Part shown: one piece after another, positions 10,942-27,835 of the stretch | How positions within the stretch are numbered: position 1 is the first letter of the stretch | How the letters are laid out: each line of letters opens with the position of its first letter | Source: an uncultured Planctomycetaceae bacterium | GTDB taxonomy: Bacteria > Planctomycetota > Planctomycetia > Pirellulales > Pirellulaceae | Direction of reading: 5' to 3' | DNA length: 64,000 bases | Assembly (NCBI GenBank): GCA_937862885.1 | Contig: CALMEE010000152.1 | Location: forward strand, 1 to 64,000 | Notes under the pieces: model-generated | Databases searched by the model: none | What the model saw: the letters and a program-made list of their open reading frames with translations, nothing else | Told to the model about the DNA's origin: nothing | Translations under genes and position numbers: made by a program

Positions 10942-11712
10942 CCGGTACCCAATTCGATCGATCGTCTCTGAAAAGCTATTTAACCAAGTCCAAGAGATTC
11001 TCAAAACCAATCGAGTTTACACGCACAAGCACCAAACAACTCGATTCGCTTTGCTGCGGCGGATGGTTTATTGCGGCGAATGTGGAAGTTTGGTCATGCC
11101 CGCCTGGACTCGGCAGAAAGGCCACGAATATCGCTACTACACTTGTGCCAAGAAAGTCAAAACGGGCTATAAGAAATGTGAACTTCCGTCGATACCTGCT
11201 GGCGAATTGGAAGGGATCGTGGTTGACCAACTGCGATCACTCCTAAAGCACCCGGACGTTATTGCTCACACGTTTCGCGAGGTTTGCGCCAAGGGGGGGA
11301 AGACGGAGAATTGGCCACTGTCTCCAGACTTGACGAACTACGCGGTCGTCGCCACTAGGCGGAACAAGCGGTCCGGTTCCTGTTGGGGTTGAACGATCCC
11401 GAAAGCTCGATGGTGCAATCCGAATTGAAAAGGCTGATTGGAGAGATCAAGTCTCTGGGCCCTTCGATTCAAGGTATCGAATCCAGGGCCGCGCCAAATC
11501 GGACGATTGAGTTGAATGAAGTTACGGCCACCCTGCAGCAACTCGATCCTGTCTGGGAGGTGCTGTACCCGGAAGAGCGCCGCCGTGTCCTAGAATTGTT
11601 GATCAAATCGATTACGGTTACGAAATCTACGGTCAACATTCACTTTCGGCCCAACGGGATCGAGCAAATTGTGGACGAACTAACCCCGATTAGTGAACAG
11701 CGAGATGGCTAA
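10942..11712 (+). pseudogene. Serine recombinase C-terminal remnant
   Basis: Open frame begins just after a TAG at about 10939 with text typical of the recombinase domain of large serine recombinases (SEKLFNQVQEILKTNRVY), then the zinc beta-ribbon (VYCGECGS, YYTCAKK, GYKKCELPSI) with four ordered cysteines, then the coiled-coil tail (11383-11712, PVWEVLYPEERRRVLELLI). The N-terminal catalytic resolvase domain with its nucleophilic Ser is absent. A frameshift lies at the G7 run near 11295-11301 and an in-frame TAG at 11356-11358. The gene is dead. Its end overlaps the start of the next gene by 8 bp (ATGGCTAA). Confidence 0.8.
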
Positions 11713-14108: not shown

Positions 14109-14115
14109 CAGTGAG

Positions 14116-14478
14116 TGGAGGCGGCGGGGATTGAACCCGCGTCCCGCGATATTTCCACGATGGCCTCTACGTGTGTAGTCGATTTTTTTGTTTTCATTCA
14201 GGCACCCGTCAATCGACAGACTGATGCCCAAACTAGTCAAGAACTTGTTTTAGCTGCAAACGTACTCGACATGATTTGCCGCGAGCTGGATTTGGCGACC
14301 AGCTTTTTGGACTCTCCAGCAAAGTCCATCAGCCGGGGCTACCGTTTTTCTTAAGCAGCCAATGCGAAGGTGTTATCTTCTGCAATTAAAGTTTTAGTCA
14401 GATTTTTACGTGGCCTTCTGACTAACCACGACACGCCACCAGCGTTTCTACCTACCCGGTCGATTCCAATTCGCCCCC
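14116..14478 (-). ncRNA. ssrA: tmRNA (transfer-messenger RNA)
   Basis: The 363-nt gene rescues stalled ribosomes with SmpB. The 5' end GGGGGCG pairs with CGCCTCC at the 3' end to form the acceptor stem with A as discriminator. The T arm has stem GCGGG/CCCGC and loop TTCAATC. The tag reading frame is at 14351-14383: resume codon GCA, then EDNTFALAA and TAA, so the tag is AEDNTFALAA. The ALAA end is the normal signal for ClpXP-type proteolysis. It is a one-piece tmRNA, not permuted. A possible promoter is TAGAAC at 14485-14490 with TTGAGT at 14506-14511 (15-bp spacing, weak). No CCA is encoded. Confidence 0.93.
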
Positions 14479-14492
14479 GATTTCGTTCTACG

Positions 14493-14834
14493 CTCGGTCA
14501 CAAACACTCAACGCGTTGTTCAACCTCGATGAATGCTTTCCAGCACAAATCAATCACGCACTCGCAAATTTCCAAACGCTCGAATTACTCTATGCATCCG
14601 AAAATTCAATGCACCTAAAAGATTAAACAACTCGAAATACCAAAGAACTCAAAATTTTAAAGAACTCGTAAATTCAATGTTCTCGAAGATTCCTCGCGCA
14701 CGTTTAACTCACGTGCTCGCCAAGCAGAAGCTTTTAAGAATCTCGTTTGAGCGGGAATGCCGAACGCCTGGAAACACCAACCGCTCGAAACAGCCAACCG
14801 CTTGAACAGCCATGGGCTCGAAAGTCTAGCCCAG
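14493..14834. repeat. Degenerate 17-bp tandem repeat upstream of ssrA
   Basis: The word CTCGAA or a one-to-two-base variant recurs at 14561, 14579, 14631, 14648, 14665, 14682, 14716, 14767, 14784, 14801 and 14817, with spacings of 17 or near-multiples of 17 (16-18). Units such as CTCGAAACAGCCAACCG (14784) and CCTGGAAACACCAACCG (14767) match at 11 of 17 positions; CTCGAAATACCAAAGAA (14631) and CTCAAAATTTTAAAGAA (14648) at 13. About 20 decayed units fill the gap between ssrA and about 14834. The period is not a multiple of three, so it is not coding. Nothing else is seen to 15107. Confidence 0.6.
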
Positions 14835-15107
14835 AAAAAATGGCGGTTACGCGATTTCAACGCCTGCAACTCAGCAGACTTAGAGGCGTAAACTGCCCTG
14901 CTCTGACTGACAAGTCGATAATTCTTTAAACGTCTGATTTGCAAAATTCTCTATTGAACTAATTATCGACTACCAAGCACTTTTTTCCAGTCTAAATTTG
15001 AGATTTTCGGCGAGCAGAAGTTGGAAATAATCGAGGCAAGTCTCGCCTAAGTTCGCTTTACCTCCGCTGGCGACGTATCTAATGAACGATAGATGCGGAT
15101 TCGGTGA

Positions 15108-16145
15108 CTAGCGGATTTCCATCAGGCGCCATTCGGCCTGATAGTTCATGCCCAGCGAGATAATTCGCTCCAGCAATTCCTCGTACGAAATGCCGGCTGC
15201 TTCGGCGGATTCTGCAAAATCTTCGCCGTATGAAAGATTCGGGTTGGGGTTGGCTTCAAGCACGTAGACTTGTCCTTGGTCGTTTAGGCGTAAATCCATG
15301 CGCGCGTAGCCGCTGAGATTGAGGGCTCGGTAGACACGTTTCACCGTATTGATGATGCTGCGCTCAATGTCGGGCTCGAGATCCGTCGCGGCATTGGTTT
15401 CAATCCCCAACTTTTTCTGGTAGGCCTCGTCCCATTTCACGCGGGCGGTAGCGATTTGCGGAAGTCCTTTGGGCGCCTTACGAAAATGGAGTTCCCAAAC
15501 CGGGAATGTCGTAAGACGGCGATTGCCCAGCACACCCACGTAAAGTTCGCGCCCTTCGATGTACGATTCCACCATCGCATCGGTTTCCAATTCGCCATGG
15601 ACATAGGCAACGCGATCCTTCAATTGTTGGTCGTCATAAACGATTGACTCCTCGGTTATCCCCAACGAGGCCTCTTCGATCACGGATTTGACCAACAGCG
15701 GAAATTGCAAGTCGCGGCCACGTCGCACTTTTTTCCCCTTCGAAACAACGATGAATCGTGGCGTCCGAATACGATGGAAAGCCAAGATCTTCTTGGCCAG
15801 CGCTTTGTCATGTGAGAGCAACATGCCGCGCGGATTACAACCTGTATAATGTTGTTTCATCAACTCAAGGTAACTCACGACATGTTGGTCATAAACGCCA
15901 ACACCATGGAATTCCTCAAGCAGGTTGAATGCGATATGTGGTTTGAACTCAAGTATGCCATCTCGCAGCACACCCAGATTGTCACTGATACCCAAAGGCT
16001 GCACTTCGTGGCCGATATTGCGTAGGGTCGTGACCACGTCGAACTCGGTCTTCCACTCATTAATTTCTTCCTCAGTGTAGCCATCCATGGTTTCGGGTGG
16101 TACGAGTGAAGCATGCATCAGAACTAGAATACGCTTTTTTTTCAT
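15108..16145 (-). CDS. ATP-grasp ligase (D-Ala-D-Ala ligase-like)
   Basis: A 345-residue enzyme of the ATP-grasp superfamily. The N-terminal domain (about 1-100) has the Rossmann-like start KRILVLMHASLVPPE. The central ATP-binding lobe carries FPLLVKSVIEEASLGI and ESYIEGRELYVGVLGN. The C-terminal lobe has the metal-binding stretch YARMDLRLNDQGQVYVLEANPNPNL, where the E and N ligands are intact. D-alanine ligases look like this, but so do other carboxylate-amine ligases, and the substrate cannot be set. Its ATG overlaps the stop of the upstream metallopeptidase gene (ATGA), so the two are coupled. Confidence 0.8.
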   Translation of the reverse strand: MKKKRILVLMHASLVPPETMDGYTEEEINEWKTEFDVVTTLRNIGHEVQPLGISDNLGVLRDGILEFKPHIAFNLLEEFHGVGVYDQHVVSYLELMKQHYTGCNPRGMLLSHDKALAKKILAFHRIRTPRFIVVSKGKKVRRGRDLQFPLLVKSVIEEASLGITEESIVYDDQQLKDRVAYVHGELETDAMVESYIEGRELYVGVLGNRRLTTFPVWELHFRKAPKGLPQIATARVKWDEAYQKKLGIETNAATDLEPDIERSIINTVKRVYRALNLSGYARMDLRLNDQGQVYVLEANPNPNLSYGEDFAESAEAAGISYEELLERIISLGMNYQAEWRLMEIR

Positions 16146-20731: not shown

Positions 20732-23700
20732 TCACAACGCTTTCTCGGTCCTGCCTCGCACGGCATTCAAGTGTTCATCCAGGTATAATTCCAGTTCGTC
20801 GTTACGGACTTCCTCCAAGTTTGTAAACGCCATGCTAACAACATCACGGCCGCTGCCAATCGAACGGACTTTGGGTTCATTGGCGAACGAAACGATGCGC
20901 CCCAGCACGGAAATGCTGGAAGGGCCCGTCAGGTGTAACCAAACTGCGTCATGGCGTTTGGTTTGGATGCTGGCCCACGGTTCCTTTTGTTCCGAAACGA
21001 ACAAGTGAATCAGTTGTTTGTTGTTCCAAAGGAATTGGCAGTCACCAGCAATATTTTTCAACAAGTCGACGAGTTCTTCTAATACCTCGACGTCCCATGC
21101 GATCTTCTTGCCAGTGGTGAAGCCTTTCCGCATGTAATGCCATTTCTCTCCCAACTTCGTCCATGGCGTGTGGTCTTTAATCTTGAATTGCGCGTCGGAT
21201 GTGCTGTCCAAAAAACTCTGACAAGCAGAGTCAATAAAATCCCAAAACGCGGCAATGTCGATTTCACCTAATTCATGTAAGCGAAATTCAATCTCTTGCC
21301 ACATCCCTTTTTGATTTGAAATTCGGATACGCGGTTGGTTTCCGTACAACGGAATATCATCCATCTCATTCAGCGTTTTCAGGGGAATGTTTCTGAGCAA
21401 TTCATCGCGTTTGAAGGCGTTCTTGCGGCAGCGGAACTTTAGTTTCAACAGCCATTGTTCACCGGTTATCGCATGGAGGAACCACCCTCTTTGTTTTGTT
21501 GCAGCTGAGATCTCGACGACGCTGCGCGAATTCCAATCGGTTGGAGAAAACCCATCCATCGCCTCGATTTTGTCGATCACTTTTGACAAGATCCTGCCGT
21601 CCCACTTGACCGGCTCGCCGTTGCGACCGACGCGCTGTAGCGTATGCCAACCTCGGCCATCGATTTCCCACGGCATCTTGACAGTGCTACCAAAATCATT
21701 GATATCGAGTTCGTCACTTGCTGATTCATGGACTTGATTCGCAACAAACTCCTGTCGCTCGAAGTATTGAGCCGATTTCAGCACCGGAGCCAAAGCCTCA
21801 CCGGTGTAGCTGCGCAGCAGCTTGCCGTCTCTGCTACGTTTCGCTTTTTCAGCATGTTCGGCCACCATCTCCGGGGTTCCCGCAACGACCACTTTGCCTC
21901 CCTCGTTACCCGCTTCTGGTCCTAGATCGATGACCCAGTCAGCACATTTGATCACGTCCAAGTTATGTTCGATCAATACGACCGTATTCCCGATATCGAC
22001 CAAGCGTTGCAAGACTTCGAGGAGTTTTACGAGGTCACTGAAATGCAAACCAGTTGTCGGTTCATCGAGAATGTACAGTGTATTTCCGGTGTCTGGCCGA
22101 GAAAGTTCCGCCGCCAACTTTACACGTTGAGCTTCACCGCCGCTCATTGTTGGTGCGGATTGCCCCAATTGCAGATAGTCAAGTCCAACGTCGCACAACG
22201 TTTGCAGGCTGCGACGAATTTTTGGCACGTTTTCAAATAGTCTCGCTGCATCGGCACAAGTCAGGTTCAGTACGTCATTGATCGAGTGTCCGTTAAACTT
22301 TACCTCAAGAGTTTCTTGATTATATCGTCGCCCTTGGCATGTTTCGCATTCGACCCAAACGTCGGGAAGAAAGTGCATTTCGATGCGTATCTGCCCGTTT
22401 CCTTCACAGTTTTCGCAACGTCCTCCCGGAACATTGAAGCTAAATCGCCGTTGTGAATAACCGCGAACTTTGGCGTCAGGGAGCTGTGCAAACAGTTGAC
22501 GAATCAATTCGAAAACACCCGTGTATGTGGCAGGATTCGACGTTGGTAGATTCCCCAATGGGGACTGGTCGACTTGGATCACCTTATTAATATGTTCCAA
22601 ACCTTGAATCTGATCGTGCGCGCCGGGTTGGGTTGATGCTCGATTCAATCGTCTGGCAACCTCGCGATACAGAATATCGTTGATCAAGGAACTCTTGCCA
22701 CATCCACTTGGGCCGGTAACGACCGTTAACGTTTGCAGCGGGATGCTAACATCGACGTTCTTAAGATTGTGATGTCTGGCCCCGAGAATATCGATTGAAT
22801 TGACCAACACCAATGGTTTACCCGTTTGTTTTCCCGCGCGTGAGCGCTTGTTCGCATTTTCCTGCGGTTTGACCGGAACAAGACCGGGTCGTCGCGTCGC
22901 GGGAATCGGGATTTGTTTTTGGCCGTTGAGGAACGGGCCGGTAACGGACGCTGGTTGTTGCACAAGTTGTTTTGGTGTACCGTAACCCACAATTTGACCA
23001 CCGCCAGAGCCAGCTTGAGGTCCGAAGTCAAAAACGCTGTCTGCGTTTTCGATGATCTCGCGGTCGTGCTCGACAACGAGCAGCGTATTCCCGAGATCGC
23101 GAAGTTTCTGCAAAGCGTGCAGCAGACGTGTGTTGTCGCGCGGATGCAGGCCGATTGTGGGTTCATCGAGAACGTACAAGACGCCACAAAGTCCACTACC
23201 GAGTTGGCTGGCCAAACGAATGCGTTGGGCTTCTCCATTGGACAGCGTGTTCGCGGCTCTAGATAGCGTGAGGTAGCCGAGGCCAACGTCGTTGAGGAAC
23301 GCGACCCGATTCTTGATTTCGCGGATGATCTCCCCCGCCACTTTTTTTTGCCTCGCCTCAAACTTCCAACCTGAGATTTCGCGTTGTAGCTGGTTGATTG
23401 GCATACGACAGACATCGTCGATGGTAACGTCATTGAACCTAAAGGCGGCGGCGTCAACACGCAGCCGGCTGCCAACGCACGACCCACAATCGACAGTCTC
23501 AACCATCGTATTTATTTTCGCGCGAAAGGCGGCGGACAGGCGAATCGATTCCTGAATGGCTGGGTTGATCCCCTTGAATTGAAATTTGAAAGGAGGCTGC
23601 GCCGGGCTTGTCGCCTGTTGTAAGTCTATGCCGGGAACGTTAAACCATCGTTCGCCAGTTCCGTAAAACAATAGGCGCCGTTGGCGGGAATCGAGCTGAC

Positions 23701-26700
23701 TAAAGGATTGTCGACTGGAAATGCCCGCTTCTCGATCTAGGCATTCAACCATGCGCTGCGCGAGTTCGTTTTGTTCGGCGGGGATCATGTTGACGGCCCC
23801 TTCAGCTAAAGAGAATTCAGTTCCGCGCAAGTAGACGTGAGGACTGATTCCCACTTGAGTGCCCAAGCCTTCGCAAGATGGGCACCAACCGAGTTGGCTG
23901 TTGAATGAAAAATGATGTGGCGAGAGACGTTCGAAACTGCGCCCGCAGGCGGAACACGCGAGGTGTTGGCTATGCGTGACTACTGGCCAGTGAATTTCAT
24001 TGGTGTTGTCGTCGACGAGGACCGTATTCATCACACCGGCCCCCATGGACAACGCGACCTCGACGCTTTCCGCAATGCGTGCCCGAGATTCCGGTTTGAC
24101 CGTTATTCGGTCCACAATGATCTTGATATCGAATTTTGCTCGGCGATCAAGGATCGGTGCGTCATCAACATTGTAGGTTTGTTTATTGATGCGAACCCGC
24201 ACGAACCCCGACGAGCGAATCTCTTCCCACAATGCAGCGTAATCTTGCACTTCGGCCGTATTGACCGGTGCCATCAGGTACATGCGGCTGCCCACTTCAC
24301 AGTCCATGACCTTGTCCACGATCTGATCAGCTGTTTGCGTGCCAATTTCAATGTCGCAATCAGGGCAATACGGTGTCCCTAATCGCGAATAGAGAATCCT
24401 CAAAAAATCGTAAACTTCCGTCACGGTCCCCACGGTACTGCGCGGCGTATTGCCCACATTTTTCTGTTCGATGGCGATTGCCGGTGAGAGCCCATCGATG
24501 TGTTCGACCTTGGGTTTGGACATTTGATTGACGAATTGCCGAGCATAAGAACTCAGGCTTTCTACATAACGTCGCTGACCCTCAGCATAGATGGTGTCCA
24601 TCGCCAAAGAACTCTTACCGCTGCCGCTGGGCCCGCTGAATACCGTCATGCGATCGCGAGGAATGTCCAAGTCAACCGATCGAAGATTGTGTTGTGCCGC
24701 ACCCCGGACACGAATGTGATGATTGATGGCTGGCTGGGTTGTTTGGTCAGTCGTTGTTCGCTCGGTGGAAATCTTGATTCGTTCACCGCCAGTTACCGCT
24801 CGCAGAGCCTGCCCCGTGTACGATTCTTCTACCTGCATGATTTGTTGGGGAGTGCCCGCAGCCACAATTTTTCCTCCCCCTGCTCCACCTTCCGGGCCGA
24901 TGTCAATTATCCAATCAGCCGTCTTAATGACGTCAAGATTGTGTTCAACTACCAACACCGTGTTCTTGGCGTCGACGAAATTATGTAGGACCTTGAGTAG
25001 CAAATTAACATCGGCAAAGTGCAGACCGGTTGTCGGCTCGTCCAATAAATAAAGGGTCTTGCCCGTACTCTTTTTGGAAAGCTCTTTAGCGAGTTTGACG
25101 CGTTGGGCCTCGCCGCCGGACAAGGTTGGAGAAGGTTGGCCTATTTTGATATAGTCCAGTCCGACATCGTGGAGCGTCTGCAGGCGGTGTTGAATTCGCG
25201 GAATGTTATCGAACAACCTCATCGCTTCCTGCACATCCATGTCCAGTACGTCGGCGATGGTGAAGCCCTTAAACTTGACCTGCAATGTTTCGCGGCTGAA
25301 TCGCTGGCCGTTGCAGACGGGGCATGTTACCCAAACGTCTGCCAAGAAATCCATTTCGAGCTTATTGGCTCCATTGCCATCACACGCCTGGCATCTCCCC
25401 AGCTTGACGTTGAAGCTAAACCTCCCGGGCGGATAGCCGCGGCGTTTGGACTCAGGCAATTCAGCGTATAGCTTGCGGACTTCATCAAAGACTTTAATGT
25501 ACGTGCCTGGATTACTGCGCGGTATGCGACCGATGGGAGTTTGATCGATGGCGATCAACTTATCGAGTTGCTCAATGCCCTCAATGCGATCGTGCGCACC
25601 GGGTTCACCAATGCCGAAGTTCAACTGTTCACGCAATGCTTCAACCAAAATGTCGTTGATCAGGGAACTTTTGCCGCTGCCAGAAACGCCGGTCACACAA
25701 ACAAATAATCCGAGCGGAATTTCGACATCAATTCCCTTCAAATTATTGTGTCGCGCATTCACGATTCTTAGCACCCGCGACTGATCAATTGGGCGTTGTA
25801 CCGCGGGTGCTTCAATCTTTAGTTTTCCAGAGAGATATCTACCGGTAACGCTTTTCGCAGACTTCACAATTTGGCCCGGCGGTCCTTGAGCAACAACGTG
25901 ACCGCCGCGGACTCCCGGTCCCGGACCAAAATCGATGATGTGATCCGACGCCAGCATCGTCTCTTCATCATGCTCCACGACGATCACCGTGTTCCCCTGA
26001 TCGCGGAGTCGCTGCAGCGTATTGATCAGCCGTTGGTTGTCGCGTGCGTGGAGGCCAATCGATGGTTCGTCAAGGATGTACAAAACTCCGACCAAGCCGG
26101 ATCCAATTTGCCCAGCCAGGCGAATACGCTGGCTTTCGCCACCGGACAACGTGGGTGCTGTGCGGTCCAAGGTCAAATAGTTCAACCCGACGTTCATGAG
26201 GAAACCTAAACGGTTGAGGATTTCTTTGATCGCCTCAGCCGCAATGAACTGTTCCGTTTCCGTCAATTCCAGGTGCGATATGAACTGTATTGTTTCCTCA
26301 ATCGGCAAGCTGCACAGTTCAGGTAATGCAAGCAGCCGTTGCTCAGGAAATTGGGGATGGAGCGTGGCCAGCCTTATATGACTCGCTTGATCATTGAGGC
26401 GACGACCGTGGCAGCCGGGACAAGGGATATTGGCCATCAATTCCTCTAGTTGACGCTGACGAGATACGCTCGTAAGCGCGCGGTATTTTTCGTCAAGTTC
26501 GGGAATGATCCCTTGATAGGTGCCTCCGTATTTCATCGGGCGGTTACCACCTCGCCACGTAAACGTGATTACTTGATTGCCGGTCCCGTGCAGCAATGGC
26601 GCGCGATATCGTTCTTCCAGATCACGCCATTTGGTTTCGAGGATCGTCCCGGCTGGCAGTTCAAACTTTCGCTCCAACATATCGGCGACACCTTGATAAA

Positions 26701-27835
26701 TGTGGCGTCGCCAGCGACCCAAATCATCCCATTTACCAATTGTAATTACGCAACCTTGTTTGAAAGTCAGATTGTCATCCGGGATCAGACGTTGAGGATC
26801 GAAAGTGAGCAACCTTCCCAAGCCGTCGCAGACGGTGCACATGCCTTGGGGCGAATTGAAACTGAAGAGTTGGGGGGTGGGAGGGGCAAAGCTCACGCCG
26901 CAAGGAGTGCATGCATAGTCCGCCGAGTAAACTCGATCGATGAATTGCATACTTGGACTGGCGGTCGGCGTGGCTGATTTCTTTGGAGAAGAAACGCGTT
27001 TAGCGAGTTTTCCACGCGCAGCAGATTTCGCGTTGTTGTTCAACGGGAAAATTTCATCGCCGGTTGGCAAATCATCATGGGTAGGACGTGGCGAGGAGTC
27101 GATGTTCATGTGACTCTGCGAAATTGCGACGACAATATTTCCTCCGCCAACATTCAGGGCCGTTTCGACTGCCTCCGCAACACGCGCGCGTTGATTGGGT
27201 TTTGCAATCAGGCGATCGACGACAACTTCGACATCATGGCGCATCTGGCGATCTAGTTCGACATTGTCGTTGAGCGATCGAATTTCGCCATCGACTCGCG
27301 CGCGCACGAAACCGCGTTTTAGCAGGTCTTGGAACAGGTCTTTGAACTCCCCTTTCTGGCCACGGACTAACGGGGCCATCACAATGAACTCGGCGTTTTC
27401 GGGGAGTTGTAGAATACTGCCGATAATTTGATCACGGGTTTGCGCTGTGATCGGAGCGCCACACGAGGGACAGAATCCTTTGCCAATTCGCGCATAGAGT
27501 ACGCGCAGGAAATCGTAAATTTCAGTAATCGTGCCGACGGTACTGCGCGGATTGTTTCCGGCTGATTTTTGCGAGATGGAAATTGCTGGACTGATACCGG
27601 AAATCAAGTCGACGTCGGGTTTCGGCATCTGGCCCAAGAAATGTCGAGCATAGCTGGATAAGCTTTCGACGTAGCGTCGCTGCCCCTCAGCGAACAAGGT
27701 GTCAAACGCCAGAGAACTTTTGCCGCTTCCGCTCACGCCCGTGAGACAGATTAATTGGTTTCGCGGCAAGACTAGATTTACGTTTTGAAGATTGTGCTCG
27801 CGAGCACCCTTGATCACAATATCGGATTCAGGCAT
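20732..27835 (-). CDS. uvrA: Giant tandem UvrA (excinuclease ABC subunit A, duplicated)
   Basis: A 2,367-residue protein made of two complete UvrA units plus a tail. Unit A (about 5-1015) and unit B (about 1040-2015) each have two ABC ATPases: Walker A GVSGSGKSS and TGVSGSGKSS in A, SGPSGSGKSS and TGPSGCGKSS in B, with signatures LSGGESQ, LSGGEAQ, LSNGEAQ and MSGGEAQ. Both units keep the zinc-finger cysteines (CTVCDGLG, CQACDGNG; CPSCEGLG, CENCEGNG) and the UvrB/DNA-contact stretch YVESLSSYAR. UvrA normally acts as a dimer of about 940 residues in nucleotide excision repair, so this chain is probably a covalent dimer. Residues about 2015-2367 form an extra domain I cannot identify. LSNGE in unit B departs from the consensus. 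Confidence 0.95.
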   Translation of the reverse strand: MPESDIVIKGAREHNLQNVNLVLPRNQLICLTGVSGSGKSSLAFDTLFAEGQRRYVESLSSYARHFLGQMPKPDVDLISGISPAISISQKSAGNNPRSTVGTITEIYDFLRVLYARIGKGFCPSCGAPITAQTRDQIIGSILQLPENAEFIVMAPLVRGQKGEFKDLFQDLLKRGFVRARVDGEIRSLNDNVELDRQMRHDVEVVVDRLIAKPNQRARVAEAVETALNVGGGNIVVAISQSHMNIDSSPRPTHDDLPTGDEIFPLNNNAKSAARGKLAKRVSSPKKSATPTASPSMQFIDRVYSADYACTPCGVSFAPPTPQLFSFNSPQGMCTVCDGLGRLLTFDPQRLIPDDNLTFKQGCVITIGKWDDLGRWRRHIYQGVADMLERKFELPAGTILETKWRDLEERYRAPLLHGTGNQVITFTWRGGNRPMKYGGTYQGIIPELDEKYRALTSVSRQRQLEELMANIPCPGCHGRRLNDQASHIRLATLHPQFPEQRLLALPELCSLPIEETIQFISHLELTETEQFIAAEAIKEILNRLGFLMNVGLNYLTLDRTAPTLSGGESQRIRLAGQIGSGLVGVLYILDEPSIGLHARDNQRLINTLQRLRDQGNTVIVVEHDEETMLASDHIIDFGPGPGVRGGHVVAQGPPGQIVKSAKSVTGRYLSGKLKIEAPAVQRPIDQSRVLRIVNARHNNLKGIDVEIPLGLFVCVTGVSGSGKSSLINDILVEALREQLNFGIGEPGAHDRIEGIEQLDKLIAIDQTPIGRIPRSNPGTYIKVFDEVRKLYAELPESKRRGYPPGRFSFNVKLGRCQACDGNGANKLEMDFLADVWVTCPVCNGQRFSRETLQVKFKGFTIADVLDMDVQEAMRLFDNIPRIQHRLQTLHDVGLDYIKIGQPSPTLSGGEAQRVKLAKELSKKSTGKTLYLLDEPTTGLHFADVNLLLKVLHNFVDAKNTVLVVEHNLDVIKTADWIIDIGPEGGAGGGKIVAAGTPQQIMQVEESYTGQALRAVTGGERIKISTERTTTDQTTQPAINHHIRVRGAAQHNLRSVDLDIPRDRMTVFSGPSGSGKSSLAMDTIYAEGQRRYVESLSSYARQFVNQMSKPKVEHIDGLSPAIAIEQKNVGNTPRSTVGTVTEVYDFLRILYSRLGTPYCPDCDIEIGTQTADQIVDKVMDCEVGSRMYLMAPVNTAEVQDYAALWEEIRSSGFVRVRINKQTYNVDDAPILDRRAKFDIKIIVDRITVKPESRARIAESVEVALSMGAGVMNTVLVDDNTNEIHWPVVTHSQHLACSACGRSFERLSPHHFSFNSQLGWCPSCEGLGTQVGISPHVYLRGTEFSLAEGAVNMIPAEQNELAQRMVECLDREAGISSRQSFSQLDSRQRRLLFYGTGERWFNVPGIDLQQATSPAQPPFKFQFKGINPAIQESIRLSAAFRAKINTMVETVDCGSCVGSRLRVDAAAFRFNDVTIDDVCRMPINQLQREISGWKFEARQKKVAGEIIREIKNRVAFLNDVGLGYLTLSRAANTLSNGEAQRIRLASQLGSGLCGVLYVLDEPTIGLHPRDNTRLLHALQKLRDLGNTLLVVEHDREIIENADSVFDFGPQAGSGGGQIVGYGTPKQLVQQPASVTGPFLNGQKQIPIPATRRPGLVPVKPQENANKRSRAGKQTGKPLVLVNSIDILGARHHNLKNVDVSIPLQTLTVVTGPSGCGKSSLINDILYREVARRLNRASTQPGAHDQIQGLEHINKVIQVDQSPLGNLPTSNPATYTGVFELIRQLFAQLPDAKVRGYSQRRFSFNVPGGRCENCEGNGQIRIEMHFLPDVWVECETCQGRRYNQETLEVKFNGHSINDVLNLTCADAARLFENVPKIRRSLQTLCDVGLDYLQLGQSAPTMSGGEAQRVKLAAELSRPDTGNTLYILDEPTTGLHFSDLVKLLEVLQRLVDIGNTVVLIEHNLDVIKCADWVIDLGPEAGNEGGKVVVAGTPEMVAEHAEKAKRSRDGKLLRSYTGEALAPVLKSAQYFERQEFVANQVHESASDELDINDFGSTVKMPWEIDGRGWHTLQRVGRNGEPVKWDGRILSKVIDKIEAMDGFSPTDWNSRSVVEISAATKQRGWFLHAITGEQWLLKLKFRCRKNAFKRDELLRNIPLKTLNEMDDIPLYGNQPRIRISNQKGMWQEIEFRLHELGEIDIAAFWDFIDSACQSFLDSTSDAQFKIKDHTPWTKLGEKWHYMRKGFTTGKKIAWDVEVLEELVDLLKNIAGDCQFLWNNKQLIHLFVSEQKEPWASIQTKRHDAVWLHLTGPSSISVLGRIVSFANEPKVRSIGSGRDVVSMAFTNLEEVRNDELELYLDEHLNAVRGRTEKAL

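Follow-up and report, generated by a model that had tools for sequence, protein, structure and literature searches.

Precursors of tmRNA carry 5' extensions, which are removed by RNase P. The degenerate repeat array described here, from an uncultured Planctomycetaceae bacterium, resembles such extensions in lying immediately 5' of the mature tmRNA and on the same strand, and variable-length leaders can be inferred in relatives. However, the ~340 nt of repeats found here exceed the leaders predicted in relatives, most of which measure 20–150 nt (270 nt in the locus L087). A different point of comparison is provided by the short non-coding satellites and minisatellites of prokaryotes (Subirana & Messeguer 2019, PMC6749651), which, like the present array, consist of short head-to-tail units extending over a few hundred bp, are non-coding, and occur singly without a transposed family. 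Here, in contrast, the units are strongly decayed (identity of 0.43 at lag 17) and the array is placed directly against ssrA. Degenerate direct repeats of 16–22 bp are also shared with plasmid iterons, as represented by the 22-bp array beside a RepA-like gene at L206 of the same assembly, but the ssrA array has a different unit and no initiator gene.

Anatomy of the array and its neighbourhood

The window, by which we mean the whole stretch of 64,000 nucleotides that was analysed, carries ssrA on the minus strand at 14115–14478 (ARAGORN and Rfam RF00023, 183.9 bits), with an intact tag peptide, AEDNTFALAA. Its upstream neighbour, a D-Ala-D-Ala-ligase-like ATP-grasp gene that shares its strand, spans 15108–16145 (an ORF matching Pfam PF07478, E 2.6e-27); the nearest named relatives of the protein are from Pirellulaceae including Mariniblastus, with identities of up to 74%. 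When we examined 30 loci of this ATP-grasp gene from the family and 20 from named genomes, ARAGORN detected a tmRNA within the examined stretch in this genome's locus only. The 2 genes are separated by 629 bp (14479–15107), of which the array occupies the ssrA-proximal half; upstream of the array, the gap also contains an inverted repeat found by repeat search, AGTCGATAATTCTTTAAA / TTGAACTAATTATCGACT, at 14913–14971 with 23 nt between its arms.

Near the 3' end of ssrA, which is a known integration site (PMC3146451), are genes for an AbiEi/AbiEii type IV toxin-antitoxin system (13698–12158, minus strand) and a recombinase zinc-ribbon fragment (11051–11392), which together look like the remains of an island inserted at ssrA; the 64-kb window yielded no further copy of the 3' end of the gene. 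Farther away, a reading frame of 2367 aa at 20732–27835 is UvrA-like and looks like 2 UvrA copies fused head to tail.

The first-pass annotation had reported a 17-bp periodicity in the segment 14493–14834, and the autocorrelation of this segment bears it out: identity was 0.425 at lag 17 (z 6.76), 0.396 at lag 34 (z 5.21) and 0.357 at lag 51 (z 3.71), relative to 500 dinucleotide shuffles, whose best lags had a 99% quantile of 3.58. No other period that is not a multiple of 3 is as strong anywhere in the 64 kb (runner-up, z 4.06). Tandem Repeats Finder, which had been proposed as a check, likewise reported arrays of period 34, 17 and 16 at 14599–14679, 14625–14667 and 14771–14823, respectively. 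Together with a wraparound profile, these observations define a degenerate tandem array at 14490–14828 on the minus strand, comprising ~21 units of 16–20 (mostly 17) bp that run from 14828 to ~14490 in the ssrA sense with the consensus TGCATTGAAATTTCGAG. The units are thus arranged head to tail with a period above chance, as in a minisatellite. With ssrA on the minus strand, the array is indeed upstream of the gene, as the first-pass annotation had it, and ends at 14490–14493, ~12–15 bp from the 5' end of ssrA, in agreement with the ~15 bp originally estimated.

The wraparound profile places the best-ordered core of the array at 14500–14698 (minus strand), with units starting at 14698, 14681, 14664, 14647, 14630, 14613, 14596, 14578, 14560, 14543 and 14523, and the local lag-17 signal peaks at about 14561–14700. 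A distal sub-array of CGGTTGGCTGTTTCGAG-like units is found at 14766–14828 (minus strand), as seen both in the wraparound profile and in the period-16 array of Tandem Repeats Finder. The intervening segment, 14749–14687, is largely off-consensus; from its predicted helices, this interruption would form a branched hairpin as minus-strand RNA, and it contains the palindrome GCACGT-N7-ACGTGC at 14698–14716, which was present in no other locus that we retrieved, save overlapping copies of this one. The array extends over about 340 bp, as reported, but is not continuous over that length. The units match the consensus at ~60%, and a MAFFT alignment of overlapping unit triplets slipped by whole units. 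For neighbours in the core, the matches number 8–13 in 17 positions rather than the 11–13 claimed for adjacent units.

It had been argued that a 17-bp period excludes coding. This does not hold, since 51 bp equal 17 codons, so that the period alone is insufficient, and open reading frames do cross the array. We nevertheless rejected a coding interpretation: the crossing frames gave no significant Pfam match.

Heterogeneity among the columns of the unit was normal, 26% of neutral simulated arrays being as heterogeneous. A contiguous 7-bp core, TTTCGAG, was however conserved relative to the rest of the unit beyond 99.4% of the neutral simulations (0.6% as extreme), in a test that was chosen after the fact and that applies to one sequence only. 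Such conservation could reflect selection on the core, whether for pairing in RNA or for binding of a protein, or else a single unusual history of duplication.

Related loci and other repeats in the genome

The 17-bp period was absent from 57 other planctomycete ssrA upstream regions, taken from the family and the order, in which the highest z at lag 17 was 2.7 as compared with ~6.7 here. When the array was used as a BLAST query on 241 genomes of the family, it recovered itself and short, non-periodic matches, with no homologous array; we do not regard these matches as homologues, the best of them (L222, E 6e-5) being without a 17-bp period. The orthologous site in relatives thus lacks the array, as would be the case for a minisatellite of local origin, the comparison being made at the level of family and order in a set with no genome of the same genus. 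The idea of a conserved regulatory array does not survive the test that the first-pass annotation had itself set, namely absence of periodicity from related ssrA upstream regions, and the observation of the repeat is left intact. Two relatives, L086 and L087, carry 7-bp ACTGCCG repeats between the predicted promoter and the tmRNA, in the last 250 nt before ssrA, and L087 has a duplicated longer stretch as well in its predicted pre-tmRNA leader. These repeats are unrelated to the 17-bp unit.

Within its own genome, BLAST of the array found itself alone. A search for other 17-bp arrays had also been recommended; our period scan, which covered 1.65 Mb (31% of the genome), showed one other long, non-plasmid, degenerate and non-coding array, but its period is 16 bp and its unit is unrelated. 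This array (L122:36–375, unit CAGAATCCTCTAACTT) has a kinase-like reading frame a short way downstream, at the end of contig C7, and adjoins a 66-bp sequence also present at other contigs. We looked for a motif common to the 16-bp and 17-bp units, and the likeness was not above that of shuffles. Several degenerate repeats of ~22 bp resembling ACCGTGAACTGNGACAGGAA occur at L206:7655–7850, directly upstream of the RepA-like (PF10134) gene, and are probably the iterons of a plasmid that forms part of the assembly. Pairs of TTCGAG spaced by 17 bp, exact or with one mismatch, were found 48 times elsewhere in the genome as against 20 for the reversed pattern, as scattered singles with no second cluster. 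Membership of a dispersed family was rejected, given that the array found only itself and that the 2 exact 17-spaced TTCGAG pairs elsewhere lie in non-periodic sequence. Also rejected was an origin from fragments of the tmRNA, similarity to which is no longer than 8–9-mers.

Promoter, leader and RNA folding

In many relatives, a recognizable, TATAAT-like -10 element is located mostly 20–150 nt before the mature tmRNA, and the leaders predicted for L086 and L087 are ~190–270 nt long; these lengths are approximate, inasmuch as in some relatives (e.g., L083 and L085) the top promoter match is not the AATAAT site seen by eye. For the present locus, a promoter model trained on the relatives' ssrA upstream regions gave a best score of 7.5 over 700 bp upstream, as compared with a shuffled mean of 9.9. 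A simple scan of the gap found a single sigma-70-like site, TGGAAA-16-GATAAT at 14962–14989 on the minus strand (1 found, 1.0 expected), which scores 6.2 under the relatives' model and is not above chance. The suggestion of an array placed across the ssrA promoter thus could not be upheld, no ssrA promoter being recognizable. The array does occupy the position of a leader, being on the strand of the mature tmRNA and immediately 5' of it, and may plausibly be transcribed. An excess of G+T on the sense strand, which starts at about 14840, would be accounted for by a transcribed leader or, more simply, by a founder unit rich in G and T.

The ssrA-sense RNA from 14834 to 14479 was predicted to fold with a minimum free energy of -121.5 kcal/mol, z -3.70 relative to shuffles, as against z -0.89 for the antisense strand. 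The predicted outer stem pairs 14767–14744 with 14513–14490, and there are several inner hairpins; mean pair probabilities of the stems are mostly 0.8–0.99, many above 0.9, and the sub-fold across the interruption (14682–14749) has a z of -2.67. Since a repetitive sequence folds more readily than its shuffled counterpart, we used stricter controls, which were chosen after the fold had been seen and, like the test of core conservation, concern a single sequence. With the order of all units shuffled, the observed fold stood at z -3.96, and none of 300 shuffles was as good. When the order of the core units alone was shuffled, with the flanks kept, 2 of 400 arrangements reached the observed energy, as did 2 of 190 core rotations; permutation within columns gave folds as good in 3% of cases, or in 2 of 400 when confined to the core with the flanks kept. 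Neutral 17-bp arrays were also simulated with matching composition and decay, and 1.25% of them, each compared with its own shuffles, reached a fold as good. The core alone, compared with shuffles of its own units, had a z of only -1.25. The stability of the array RNA thus exceeds both shuffled and repeat-preserving controls, yet 12 of 58 ssrA upstream 300-mers, this one included, have a sense z of -3 or below, which probably stems from terminators or other repeats in several of these regions. L087, the predicted leader of which bears repeats too, also folds strand-asymmetrically upstream of ssrA (sense -5.83, antisense -0.47), and the 16-bp control array of L122 folded not significantly better than its shuffles on either strand. 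An assignment to a known RNA family was rejected, as Rfam, searched down to E 10, returned nothing but the tmRNA itself and a chance match.

Origin of the array and possible functions

The first-pass annotation had offered 3 interpretations, an old minisatellite, a protein-binding array and a remnant of a spacer-type array, and the first of these is the best supported. We consider the array most likely, with a probability of roughly 0.6, to be an old, decayed, lineage-specific 17-bp minisatellite situated ahead of ssrA, in the intergenic gap or in the leader. A short G/T-rich unit upstream of ssrA would have been tandemly duplicated, by slippage or unequal exchange, grown to about 20 units and then drifted through substitutions and small indels to its present match with the consensus. 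The array probably sits inside a long, transcribed pre-tmRNA leader; most likely, this would be a 5' extension of the precursor that is not translated and that is removed by RNase P, as general tmRNA biology suggests. It would have been tolerated because the length and sequence of the leader are hardly constrained, as indicated by the wide variation of the relatives' predicted leaders and by the unrelated repeats that 2 of them carry in theirs. That the sense strand folds well would then be mainly a by-product of self-pairing of the unit core, UUCGAG, with the help of G-U pairs. The real and local periodicity, its absence from the 57 other ssrA upstream regions, the lack of a homologous array in the 241 family genomes, the second degenerate non-coding array in the genome, the normal column heterogeneity and the G+T excess expected of a GT-rich founder all count for the minisatellite. 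The conserved TTTCGAG core and the sense-strand fold fit pure decay poorly; counting against a pure minisatellite are this conservation, the comparison of the fold with simulated arrays, the 2 of 400 unit-order shuffles and 2 of 400 column permutations, and the 16-bp control, in which folding was not significantly better than in shuffles.

One rival is a selected, structured RNA leader. In such a leader, for which the 17-bp repeats would have been the raw material, the transcribed array would fold into a compact, branched form, which would protect the precursor, display the site for RNase P or regulate tmRNA maturation. The strand asymmetry and high pair probabilities of the fold, its superiority to unit-order shuffles, column permutations and 98.75% of simulated decayed arrays, and the similar asymmetry in L087, whose predicted leader also bears repeats, speak for it, and provide a weak hint that the RNA form may fold on purpose. 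However, the structure is predicted from a single sequence with no homologue among 241 family genomes, Rfam is silent on it, its z is not rare among ssrA upstream regions and the core by itself is less striking; we judge a selected leader to be unlikely. That the precursor carries a ~340-nt repeat-built leader which folds into a selected branched structure controlling tmRNA maturation or abundance, with repeat-built leaders having arisen separately in other Pirellulaceae (L086 and L087), seems to us more doubtful still.

The conserved 7-bp core with its variable spacer could also be read as a series of protein-binding sites, in which TTTCGAG elements spaced by 17 bp would recruit a regulator acting on ssrA as a silencer or an activator; here the core is kept beyond simulated decay, the array adjoins ssrA, and the lack of a recognizable ssrA promoter makes an unusual control region conceivable. 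But 17 bp correspond to ~1.6 helical turns, so that the sites would wind around the helix unphased, and some units are 1–3 bp longer or shorter. Comparative support is also lacking: the sites of an operator array should be conserved where the gene is orthologous or under shared control, whereas the 57 other ssrA regions have no such array and the 17-spaced TTCGAG pairs at other places in the genome stand alone. We regard binding by a regulator as improbable. Least credible, to the point of being nearly dismissed, is a remnant of a CRISPR or similar spacer-type array, or of plasmid iterons. The period of 16–20 bp does fall in the iteron range, and the genome has its 22-bp repeats beside the RepA-like gene at L206, but the array unit is by eye unlike the L206 repeat, and the ORFs examined beside ssrA, where the neighbours are the D-Ala-D-Ala-ligase-like gene and ssrA itself, included no replication initiator. 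Nor is there the constant repeat separated by unique spacers that a CRISPR-like array would have; it is the unit itself that repeats, with no alternation of repeat and spacer.

The significance of the array is modest unless RNA data reveal a structured leader. If a leader structure has been selected, a minisatellite would here have been converted into an element that serves the processing or regulation of the RNA behind ribosome rescue. Should the array be a decayed minisatellite, its main lesson is that the sequence 5' of ssrA is free to change in Pirellulaceae.
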